A DNA stretch of 64,000 bases from assembly GCF_002025255.2 (NCBI RefSeq), contig NZ_CP054587.1, positions 2,356,001 through 2,420,000 of the forward strand, read 5' to 3'. The notes below the pieces were generated by a model that had not been told where the DNA came from, did no database searches, and saw only the letters and a program-made list of their open reading frames with translations. Numbering within the stretch: the stretch's first letter is position 1; each line of letters opens with the position of its first letter. The stretch is from Halolamina sp. CBA1230 (GTDB taxonomy: Archaea > Halobacteriota > Halobacteria > Halobacteriales > Haloferacaceae). This document shows, one piece after another, positions 7,322 to 10,207 of the stretch. The position numbers and the translations under genes are program-made.

Positions 7322-8350
7322 TCAGACCGCCGCCATCGCGGTCCGCACCGAGTCGATCGCGCCCTCGACGTCGGCGTCGCTCACGTCCCAGTTCGTCGTG
7401 AACCGAACGGTGGTCTCGCTGAACGCCACCGCGAGCACGCCGTGCTGTTCGATCTCGCCGACGAACTCGTCGGCGTTCAGCCCCGTCCCCTCGACGTCGG
7501 CGACGACGATGTTCGTGTCGGGTGCGGTCGTCTCGATCCCGTCGATCGAGCCCAGCCCCTCCGCGATGCGGTCGGCGCGGCGGTGGTCCGCGTCGAGATG
7601 GCTGCGGTTCTCCAGCGCCAGCAGGCCGGGCGCGGCGATCATGCCGGCCTGGCGCATCCCGCCGCCGAACAGCTTCCGTGTCCGGCGCGCGCGGTCGATG
7701 AACGCCTGCTCGCCGACGAGCACCGAGCCGACGGGGGCGCCGAGCCCCTTCGAGAGACAGAACATCACGCTGTCGGCGCTGTCGGCCAGTTCGGCGGCGT
7801 CGACGTCCAGCGCGGCGGCGGCGTTGAACAGCCGCGCGCCGTCGAGGTGGACGGGCACGTCGTGGTCGTGGGCCACGCTGGCCGCGGCGTCGATCTGTGC
7901 CTTGGAGACGGCGACGCCGCCGCGGTAGTTGTGGGTGTTCTCCAGACAGAACAGCCCCGTGCCGGCCTCATGGAGGCTCTCCTCGACGACCCCTTCCTCG
8001 ACCTGCTGGGGTGTGGGGACGGCCGACTCGCCGAAGTCGAGCAGGCGCGTCTGGAGGCTACTCAGCTGGGCGATCCCGCCCAGCTCCCACTTGAGGACGT
8101 GGGCGTGCTCGTCGGCTAGGAGCTCCTGCCCGCGGTCGGTGTGGGTCCGGATCGCGACCTGGTTCCCCATCGTCCCGCTGGGGACGAACAGGCCGGCCTC
8201 CTTGCCGAGGATCTCGGCGGCCCGGGCTTCGAGTTCGTTGACGCTCGGATCGTCCTGGTAGACGTCGTCGCCGACCTCGGCGTTCTTGGCAGCCTCCCGC
8301 ATCGCGTCCGAGGGTTTGGTGACGGTGTCGGAGCGTAAGTCTACGACCAT
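7322..8350 (-). CDS. ltaE: Low-specificity L-threonine aldolase / beta-eliminating lyase
   Basis: A 342-residue PLP enzyme (fold type I) that cleaves threonine or allo-threonine to glycine and acetaldehyde. The N-terminus MVVDLRSDTVTKPSDAMR and the following EVGDDVYQDDPSVNELE are family signatures. FVPSGTMGNQVA binds cofactor, VHLDGARLFNAA holds the PLP-binding Asp, and CLSKGLGAPVGS holds the Schiff-base lysine. The open frame runs 59 codons further upstream, but that part is Thr/Pro/Ser-rich and lies outside the family, so the ATG at 8350 is preferred. It stands alone, with a repeat-rich non-coding region upstream. Confidence 0.93.
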   Translation of the reverse strand: MVVDLRSDTVTKPSDAMREAAKNAEVGDDVYQDDPSVNELEARAAEILGKEAGLFVPSGTMGNQVAIRTHTDRGQELLADEHAHVLKWELGGIAQLSSLQTRLLDFGESAVPTPQQVEEGVVEESLHEAGTGLFCLENTHNYRGGVAVSKAQIDAAASVAHDHDVPVHLDGARLFNAAAALDVDAAELADSADSVMFCLSKGLGAPVGSVLVGEQAFIDRARRTRKLFGGGMRQAGMIAAPGLLALENRSHLDADHRRADRIAEGLGSIDGIETTAPDTNIVVADVEGTGLNADEFVGEIEQHGVLAVAFSETTVRFTTNWDVSDADVEGAIDSVRTAMAAV

Positions 8351-8468
8351 GGAGTGGCTGGGAGAGGAGGAGGAATAAGGGATACGGTGGCGTGAGAACG
8401 CTTCCGGATTCAGGGTGGCGGGCGGGGTCGGTGTTTGGTTAGGTGCCGGTGCTGTGGCCGTCAAGGTT

Positions 8469-8488
8469 AGCAACTTCGTGAAATCCCC
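8469..8488 (+). repeat. Decayed copy of the hairpin-repeat end motif
   Basis: This 20-nt stretch (AGCAACTTCGTGAAATCCCC) matches the outer end motif of the repeat unit beginning at 8519 (AGCAACACCGTGAAAGCCCC) with three differences. It lies 50 nt upstream in the same orientation. It looks like an older, eroded end of the same kind of element, which suggests repeated insertion at this spot. No partner end is recognisable. Confidence 0.5.
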
Positions 8489-8518
8489 TACTGGATCGTG
8501 ATCGTTGACTAGCAGGGC

Positions 8519-8645
8519 CAGCAACACCGTGAAAGCCCCTCACTGCTCGACTCCCGGGACTCGTTGCGCTCCTCAGTCACTCCGCTCCCTGCGGTGCTTA
8601 CTTCGTCCGGGTTCGCCGAGCAGTGAGCCCCTTTCAGTCCCACCC
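8519..8645 (+). repeat. Palindromic repeat unit A (hairpin element)
   Basis: The unit starts with CAGCAACACCGTGAAAGCCCC (8519-8539, 19 of 21 bases like the reverse complement of 8977-8997) and ends with GCCCCTTTCAGTCCC (8627-8641). Just inside the ends a perfect 10-bp stem forms: TCACTGCTCG (8540-8549) with CGAGCAGTGA (8617-8626). The loop contains a TGCGGTGCTTACTTCG segment shared with unit B. No credible protein is encoded. A mirrored partner lies at 8864-8997. Confidence 0.75.
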
Positions 8646-8863
8646 ACCAGTACAGTCCTCGATCCTCCCCAGCCGACTCGCTCGCGGTGCTCGCTCGCCC
8701 CTCGCGCTCGGCTCGCGCACGGAGGCGCGAGCGCTTCGCGCCGACAGCCACCGCAGTGCGGTCGCAGTGGACGCCTCGCGGGCGCAACGGTCGCGCCCGC
8801 GGGGGGAGAGGTGGGGACTCGGTGCTGTGCCGGACCTCGTGTCCGGCGCACGGTGCTGTCGGG
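8646..8863. other. Non-coding spacer between the two palindromic repeat units
   Basis: About 220 nt of very GC-rich, low-complexity sequence full of GCGAGCG/CGCTCGC blocks. It contains one small hairpin, GCCGGAC-CTCGT-GTCCGGC, near 8830-8850. Frames that cross it on both strands give Arg/Ser/Pro/Ala-rich products with no haloarchaeal acidity, so no gene is supported. Confidence 0.5.
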
Positions 8864-8997
8864 CGGGACTGAAAGGGGCTGTCGCCTCCGGGAAGGCGGG
8901 CGAAGTAAGGACCGCAGTGGAGTGAGCGAAGCGAACGGAGCGAGGACCGCAGCGAGCCCCCCGACCGGAGGCGACAGGGGCTTTCGCGGTGTTCCTG
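8864..8997 (-). repeat. Palindromic repeat unit B, opposite orientation
   Basis: This unit mirrors unit A. Its inner end GGGACTGAAAGGGGCT (8865-8880) and outer end GGGGCTTTCGCGGTGTTCCTG (8977-8997) are near reverse complements of unit A's ends. The stem is CTGTCGCCTCCGG (8879-8891) with CCGGAGGCGACAG (8965-8977): 13 perfect pairs, with a sequence unrelated to unit A's stem. Conserved ends with a changed but still pairing stem suggest that the folded form is selected or is generated during mobility. Confidence 0.75.
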
Positions 8998-9079
8998 ATT
9001 CCGTCGTTCACCCTACAACCGGGACCGCTCCTGAGCGAGTATCGGTAGCAATGGCGCACCCCAAAGACGACGAGAACTT

Positions 9080-10081
9080 CTACAACTTCGCGTACGGGCC
9101 GCCCTTCGCCTCGGTCAGCCGGTCTACCTGCTCCTCACTCAGGTCGATCCGTGCCGCCCCGAGGTTCTCCTCCAACTGCTCCACCGTCCGCGCACCCACG
9201 ATCGGCGCGGTCACGCCGTCGCGGTGCATCAGCCACGCCAGCGCGGTCTGTGCCGGCGACGCCCCCACCTCGTCGGCGACCTCGTCCAGCACGTCGTGGA
9301 CGTCGAAGTTCGTCTCCGTCAGGTACGCTTTCTCGAACCGACTCGACTCGGCGGCGCGGGACTCGCCGGTGAGGCCGTCCTCGCGGTCGTACTTCCCGGT
9401 CAGGAACCCCTGACCGAGCGGGCTCCACGGGCAGACCGCCAGCTCCTCCTCGCGGGCGAACTGGAGGTAATCCCCCTCGATCTCCCGGTCGACGAGGTTG
9501 TACCGCGGCTGGAGCACCGTGAACGGCTCCCAGCCCTCCGCGCGGGCGAGTTCGTTCGCCTTCGCGACGCGCCAGGCGTTGGGGCGAAGCGTCGACGCGC
9601 CGAGGTAGTGGACTTTGCCCTCCTCGACGAGCGCGTTCAGCGTCTTCATCGTCTCCCGCGCCGGCGTCTCGCCGTCCCAGCGGTGGAGGTAGAGCACGTC
9701 GACGTACTCCGTGCCGAGTCGGTCGAGGATCTCGTCGACGCGGTGCCGGAGGTTCTTCCGGTTCGTGCCGCGGCTGTTGGGGTCGTCCTCCCGGATCTGC
9801 CAGTAGATCTTGGAGGCGACCGTGTAGCGCTCGCGGTCGCGCTCGGCCAGCCAGTCGCCGATCCACTCCTCGGCCTGCCCGCCGCCGTACACGTCGGCGG
9901 TGTCGATGTAGCGTCCGCCGGCCTCGGCGTAGGCGTCGAGCAGCTTCTTCGCGCGGTCCTCGCCGATCTCGAGGTTGCCTGCCTCGGTCTCGCGCCCGAA
10001 GCGCCACGTGCCGAACTGGAGCTCGCTGGTCTGGAGGCCGCTGTCGCCGAACGGGACGAAGTCGAGGTCGGTGTCGCTCAT
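9080..10081 (-). CDS. Aldo/keto reductase
   Basis: A 333-residue NAD(P)H-dependent oxidoreductase with a TIM-barrel fold. Catalytic residues are visible in the family order: Asp and Tyr in YIDTADVYGGGQAEE, Lys in ASKIYWQ and His in VLYLHRWDG. The C-terminal APIVGARTVEQLEENLGA is the nucleotide-binding end. It belongs to the YajO/Tas-like branch rather than to sugar reductases, but the substrate is unknown. The ATG at 10081 (MSDTDLDFVPFG) is chosen over an ATG 14 codons upstream because it matches the family start. The upstream repeat region separates it from threonine aldolase. Confidence 0.9.
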   Translation of the reverse strand: MSDTDLDFVPFGDSGLQTSELQFGTWRFGRETEAGNLEIGEDRAKKLLDAYAEAGGRYIDTADVYGGGQAEEWIGDWLAERDRERYTVASKIYWQIREDDPNSRGTNRKNLRHRVDEILDRLGTEYVDVLYLHRWDGETPARETMKTLNALVEEGKVHYLGASTLRPNAWRVAKANELARAEGWEPFTVLQPRYNLVDREIEGDYLQFAREEELAVCPWSPLGQGFLTGKYDREDGLTGESRAAESSRFEKAYLTETNFDVHDVLDEVADEVGASPAQTALAWLMHRDGVTAPIVGARTVEQLEENLGAARIDLSEEQVDRLTEAKGGPYAKL

Positions 10082-10207
10082 GTGTCTGCCCGTTGGGGCG
10101 AACGGGGCAAAAACGTTGAGCAATCGGCGATACGACGACCCGCGTCGACGGATCTGCCGAACATCTTCGGGAACGAGGGGTTACGGGCGTAGCTCCAACT
10201 GCTCGGT

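Follow-up and report, generated by a model that had tools for sequence, protein, structure and literature searches.

Among dispersed bacterial hairpins, the REP and REPIN sequences that go with RAYT (Y1) transposases often stand as inverted pairs with a spacing of a few tens of bp and are recognised by their shape, mismatches included. Integron attC sites, recognised as folded single strands, surround a stem of free sequence with conserved outer sequences and carry conserved unpaired features. In the haloarchaeon Haloquadratum walsbyi, the non-coding SMR-A repeat of about 110 bp has prominent inverted repeats and is present in tens of copies per genome; it is homogeneous, commonly with more than 95% identity within a type, it lies inside IS605/PATE palindromes, no target duplication has been seen for it and its mobilisation is unknown (PMC3119063). 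The PATEs of Haloquadratum, also non-coding and without target duplication, lack terminal inverted repeats and have near-terminal palindromes, common to them and to IS605-type transposons, with heterogeneous sequence beyond (PMC3119063).

The locus described here lies in the window, a stretch of 64,000 nucleotides of the Halolamina sp. CBA1230 genome that spans contig positions 2356001-2420000, and is a copy of a haloarchaeal hairpin family that has not been catalogued before: the unit matches no Rfam family above the gathering threshold, and literature searches on the motif and on haloarchaeal repeats did not find the element, PMC3119063 being the only relevant paper. A sequence-only reading of the window had pointed out two inverse units with near-identical ends and unrelated stems that pair, and both the sequence and a repeat search, which recovered the hairpins and their inverse relation (TGAAAGCCCCTCACTGCTCG/CGAGCAGTGAGCCCCTTTCA and GAAAGGGGCTGTCGCCTCCGG/CCGGAGGCGACAGGGGCTTTC), agree with it. 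The units, given there as about 130 nt long and facing each other, are indeed paired, but their limits are refined to 8522-8641 and 8865-8994 and they face outward. Likewise the stems, given as 10 and 13 bp of perfect pairing, do pair, over 12-13 bp with a few mismatches; another covarying helix comes next, along with conserved loops of non-Watson-Crick type. The features of the locus are as follows (seven-digit positions are those of the contig).

7322-8350, minus strand: flanking gene downstream of unit 1, which I take to encode a threonine aldolase (open reading frame, start codon set by ortholog alignment).
8405-8521, minus strand: tail of unit 1, reaching the downstream gene's conserved core promoter.
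8471-8488, minus strand: degenerate second unit end GGGGATTTCACGAAGTTG inside the tail of unit 1 (2364471-2364488, 3 mismatches).
8522-8641, minus strand: unit 1 (sequence, repeat search, covariance-model match at 2364522-2364641, E 1.4e-27); on the sense strand GGGACTGAAAGGGGC, stem TCACTGCTCGGC/GTCGAGCAGTGA, an internal helix with a conserved C.C mismatch, an apical loop, then GGGGCTTTCACGGTGTTG.
8642-8742, minus strand: conserved 5' block of unit 1, GGCGCG-hairpin-GCGCGAGGGRCGA-hairpin-TCGGCTGGGGAGG (alignments, blastn self-comparison).
8743-8864, no strand: rest of the centre, with GC-rich hairpins at 8774-8804 and around 8830-8850.
8865-8994, plus strand: unit 2 (sequence, repeat search, covariance-model match at 2364865-2364994, E 3.0e-25); outer sequence as in unit 1, and a 13-bp stem CTGTCGCCTCCGG/CCGGAGGCGACAG unrelated to that of unit 1.
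8995-9079, plus strand: tail of unit 2, up to the neighbouring gene's stop codon.
9080-10123, minus strand: flanking gene beside unit 2, presumably encoding an aldo/keto reductase (list of open reading frames, ortholog comparison).

The two units read outward from a 223-bp centre that holds further hairpins and the conserved 5' block. This block is common to the long-form copies of the window genome and of genome G033, whereas most other genera have about 30 bp in place of the stretch 8743-8864. The sequence of the tail of unit 1 is not common to different loci. The general plan of a unit, read on its sense strand, is GGGACTGAAAGGGGC, free stem, inner helix, apical loop, return strands and GGGGCTTTCACGGTGTTG.

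Both window hairpins have better folds than their dinucleotide-shuffled versions (z -2.7 and -2.9), which taken alone is modest evidence; chance is excluded for them because of family-wide covariation, not by these scores alone. Fitted to 15 copies of the window genome, a 28-pair structure leaves 98.8% of cells paired, and 16 pairs have changes on both sides. Since this structure was drawn from the same 15-copy alignment that it scores, pairing was tested separately on units chosen by their outer sequence only, with the stem unused and near-duplicates removed. The 129 non-redundant stems so obtained, with 125 different 5' halves, are Watson-Crick paired at 86.3% over nine stem positions, as compared to 40.7% with shuffled partners (maximum 44.8%). 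The outer helix hardly varies in the window genome, and in G033 it is changed on both sides, from TGAAAG/CTTTCA to TCAAAG/CTTTGA. Recurrent secondary inserts of about 50-65 bp were observed inside the loops of some units (L004, L011, L013, L020-L022, L281, L156); they consist of two short perfect hairpins, GAGAGACGCC..GGCGTCTCTC and ACGAGAGAGC..GCTCTCTCG, and have the look of small mobile repeats that are nested.

The unit core GGGACTGAAAGGGGC occurs exactly 20 times in the window genome, and 32 times when 2 mismatches are allowed, against only 2 matches for a reversed control. A covariance model built from the 15 copies finds 23 places in this genome, which has about 22 copies. Within the haloarchaeal order it matches 150 of 195 sampled genomes (E<=0.01) and, in a second draw overlapping the first, 125 of 145 (E<=1e-4); in a phylum-wide draw it matched 21 of the 24 genomes of the order and none of the 124 genomes outside it. 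All named genomes among the matches listed for the exact 19-base core are Halobacteria. Cultured species with many copies include Haloarcula rara and Halomicrococcus gelatinilyticus. With 150 candidates scored in each genome, the model search counted 95 copies in G033, at least 143 in G191, 40 each in G027 and G146, and 22 each in G119 and G140. Few structured non-coding features encountered in these genomes of haloarchaea are as common as the hairpin element. The copies of G033 are about 95 single ones (L337-L356 among the loci inspected), with a conserved right tail and an outward TATA-like CGAAACACCCGT..TATAAGCAC. A virus-borne element was rejected, as neither phage records nor 2.9 million viral contigs gave a match. 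A lack of further copies, or copies whose stems did not pair, would have refuted the sequence-only reading, and neither is the case: copies abound in the window genome and in related genomes, and their stems pair. Its inference that pairing kept without sequence kept means that the hairpin matters, be it as a non-coding RNA or as a mobile hairpin, is thereby supported.

A complete copy is a twin: two outward units with unrelated stems, whose terminal bases also covary. In many other genera the two units are separated by about 30 bp. In a set of 38 twins, pairing between the 8 terminal bases of one end and those of the other reaches 80%, versus 56% when the ends are shuffled (0 of 2000 shuffles), while stems within a twin are no more alike than stems across twins (0.45 versus 0.49). 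In the window the twin has an enlarged centre; single units with the conserved 5' block make up most copies of the window genome. At L005 and L140 one hairpin has been lost cleanly between flanking GGGGC repeats. As read from the alignment, without a folding run, a single strand of a twin could fold as a four-way junction made of the ends, hairpin 1, the centre GCCCCTTTCAGTCCCACCC/GGGTGGGACTGAAAGGGGC and hairpin 2. Some twins of G191 (L357, L358, L364, L373) have an additional inverted repeat, GAACTACTGTGTTGATC../..GATCAACACAGTAGTTC, at the tail ends away from the units, and this repeat sometimes overlaps the stop codon of the neighbouring gene.

Units lie between genes. With gene positions called by a simple codon model around 164 units in fetched loci, 97 have a same-strand start codon at most 300 nt downstream, 41 of them with the start codon 80-100 nt from the unit end; at convergent gene ends the distance from the unit peaks at 40-80 nt. 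Seven loci of the window genome were compared with those of congeners. At the window locus the element is observed in the window genome and in G132 and is absent from five related species (G195-G199), in which the aldolase-like and reductase-like genes are no more than about 90 bp apart. Presence and absence are equally patchy at the other loci compared, and the copy near L007 is inverted in G132. Many copies are old, the same site being occupied in several species. By alignment, the insert extends exactly from the stop codon (or divergent promoter) to a core promoter that precedes the start codon by about 45 bp. It follows that most of the tail sequence between unit and promoter comes and goes with the element. 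Comparisons of filled and empty sites revealed no target-site duplication. A riboswitch or leader of the downstream gene was rejected, since that gene has a core promoter of its own, placed after the unit and before the start codon, and species that lack the element retain it.

The tails have a peculiarity of their own. Over about 45 nt, one base in three, counted in phase with the unit end, is poor in G (164 units, the two tails of the window copy among the examples): G frequencies by phase are 0.29/0.25/0.15 in the window genus and 0.28/0.30/0.13 elsewhere, a bias matched by none of 1000 phase shuffles in either set. The periodicity is found in all genera and in both gene orientations. Protein coding does not account for it, as stop codons are present in all frames and a third-position G+C bias is absent. 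Filaments of the RecA/RadA type bind three nucleotides per subunit, and contact with such a filament is no more than a guess at the origin of the periodicity.

The unit is also found on plasmids. A blastn search of PLSDB with unit-bearing sequence returned 25 haloarchaeal plasmids for the window query and 33 for a second query. In eight of the nine plasmids inspected, all eight of MPF_T type, a gap with little coding sequence precedes an RPA-like gene and bears the unit or a stretch matching it; in the ninth, from Halorussus, the unit has another context. The RPA-like gene is of about 288-300 codons, is mostly called a DNA-binding protein and mostly starts 470-615 bp from the unit; the C-terminus of its product matches replication factor A and archaeal single-strand-DNA-binding proteins. 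Conservation across genera extends to the approximately 500 bp that separate the gene from the unit, where a long inverted repeat lies (L377 2036-2500, L379, L381-L385), and this non-coding region has no match in Rfam. Two copies of the window genome (L012, L110) and a congener copy (L114) are of the plasmid, RPA-linked type. Genomic RPA loci, which were found independently, mostly have the non-coding region and, adjoining it, the hairpin described here or a second subtype; in a few the hairpin is absent or replaced. The unit's fixed position on plasmid backbones, adjoining a DNA-processing gene, is what is expected of an oriT or ori; support of replication or transfer in cis is a possibility only. 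The plasmid link is weakened because most plasmids were chosen as unit-bearing and because G146 (40 copies) and G199 (15 copies) lack the plasmid-type RPA gene.

The explanation that I prefer, which I judge to have an even chance of being right, is that the window locus is one copy of a non-coding, transposase-free haloarchaeal hairpin family that is recognised as folded DNA and whose movement or maintenance is provided in trans. The functional piece would be the unit of about 120 nt, and what is recognised would be its shape, not the stem sequence: the outer TGAAAG/CTTTCA helix, the free stem, the conserved mismatch and G.A loops, and the conserved apex. Recognition, itself an inference, would most likely be of folded DNA, either a single-strand hairpin or a cruciform, and in complete copies, inverted pairs whose ends pair, one strand may fold into the four-way junction. 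The unit is part of the haloarchaeal plasmid backbone as well, beside the gene for an RPA-like single-strand-DNA-binding protein, and the chromosomal copies were probably moved or copied in trans by the single-stranded-DNA machinery of the plasmids. The family, its structure, pairing and distribution, its presence or absence at orthologous sites and its plasmid linkage rest on direct results; mobility, mobilisation in trans and the acting protein are likewise inferred. Against this reading, no transposase, recombinase or relaxase could be tied to the element, no target-site duplication was observed, no movement was seen at the strain level, and many copies are old.

The main rival holds that the units are a structured non-coding RNA family, transcribed outward, with a conserved fold, many paralogues and perhaps a common protein. 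Strand-specific conserved internal loops (GA/GA, a 7x7 loop, a fixed C96 opposite C or A) amid covarying helices speak for it, as do the conserved structured 500-nt non-coding region adjoining the unit on plasmids and the 5' block with its further hairpins; this block looks RNA-like as much as DNA-like, which counts against the DNA reading. If only an RNA strand has to pair, G-U is expected far above A-C. Model-fitted alignments gave 98 G-U versus 18 A-C, but this apparently strong RNA signature did not hold, shrinking to 41 versus 31 in the units chosen by outer sequence only, where G-U occupies only about 2.5% of stem positions and is not clearly above A-C; in this set, stems with at least six of the nine pairs had 26 G-T versus 14 A-C (p=0.08). 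The initial excess is probably an alignment bias, since the covariance model itself favours G-U. The near-equal rarity of G-U and A-C mildly favours DNA over RNA as the level at which pairing matters, and the argument is a weak one. An RNA reading also has no relative in Rfam and no expression evidence behind it, and must accommodate twin sense strands that stand back to back only about 30 bp apart. A mobile DNA recognised by shape is thus favoured over a non-coding RNA, because G-U is not clearly above A-C, because of presence and absence at orthologous sites, and because of the RPA-like neighbour on plasmids. The RNA reading is unlikely in my view, but it is not excluded.

Pairing might instead be kept by mutation and not by selection, the units being functionless relics in which template switching or gene conversion restores the match between the arms. 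The stems are almost perfectly Watson-Crick, at sites shared within one genus both arms have often changed together, and at one orthologous site (L066 versus L082) one arm has been replaced wholesale while the other was kept, all of which would fit. The C.C or A.C mismatch and the G.A internal loops, however, stay fixed while adjoining pairs flip from G-C to C-G, whereas template switching would remove them, and the apex and outer motifs are maintained from one genus to another; I give this possibility little credence. A conventional MITE, whose outermost bases are read by a terminal-inverted-repeat transposase and whose hairpins are cargo, is very improbable: the outer ends do form inverted repeats, matching each other in any one copy and varying from genome to genome, and several G191 twins end in the longer repeat GAACTACTGTGTTGATC/GATCAACACAGTAGTTC, but no target-site duplication is seen, solo one-ended units persist, and the hairpin structure is conserved though such a transposase would not need it.

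Going beyond the preferred reading of a folded DNA element acted on in trans, a doubtful but possible extension is that the hairpin is the cis signal of a haloarchaeal single-strand-DNA system for plasmid transfer or replication, with the RPA-like protein as partner, and that this signal has escaped as a class-wide, transposase-free mobile four-way-junction element able to exchange whole hairpins between copies. If the hairpin is a plasmid transfer or replication signal, it offers a direct handle on DNA movement between haloarchaea, for which few cis sites are known; if it is mobile without a transposase, folded DNA would be a unit of selection; and if it is an RNA, it defines a new class-wide RNA family.

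No link of the element to IS605, RAYT or SMR could be established, the SMR-A sequences themselves not having been compared. Like SMR-A, it is haloarchaeal and non-coding, has a unit of about the same size with inverted repeats and tens of copies, and shows no target duplication; unlike SMR-A, its stems differ between copies, and its units lie between genes and not in IS605/PATE palindromes. It shares with PATEs a non-coding nature, palindromes near the ends with heterogeneous sequence beyond and the lack of target duplication, but its ends are inverted repeats, as the pairing of twin ends indicates (80% versus 56% shuffled), and no link of it to TnpB or a Y1 transposase was found. An IS605/PATE origin was rejected, as 30 TnpB loci from four genomes had neither the unit nor the GGGGCTTTC or GAAAGCCCC motif. 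The window genome has about 50 TnpB and 10 Y1 transposase matches, many of them on contigs C2-C4. Resemblance to REPINs lies in the inverted hairpin pair with a short spacer (about 30 bp in most of the 38 twins, 223 bp in the window copy), although the haloarchaeal unit is several times longer than a REP. A RAYT/REPIN system was rejected since G033 and G146, with their 95 and 40 copies, have no PF01797 Y1 match, a past presence not being excludable. As in attC sites, conserved outer sequences surround a free stem and unpaired features are conserved, but the element is flanked by conserved chromosomal genes and not by exchanged cassettes. The nearest kin in kind of this new haloarchaeal family are transposase-free hairpin repeats.
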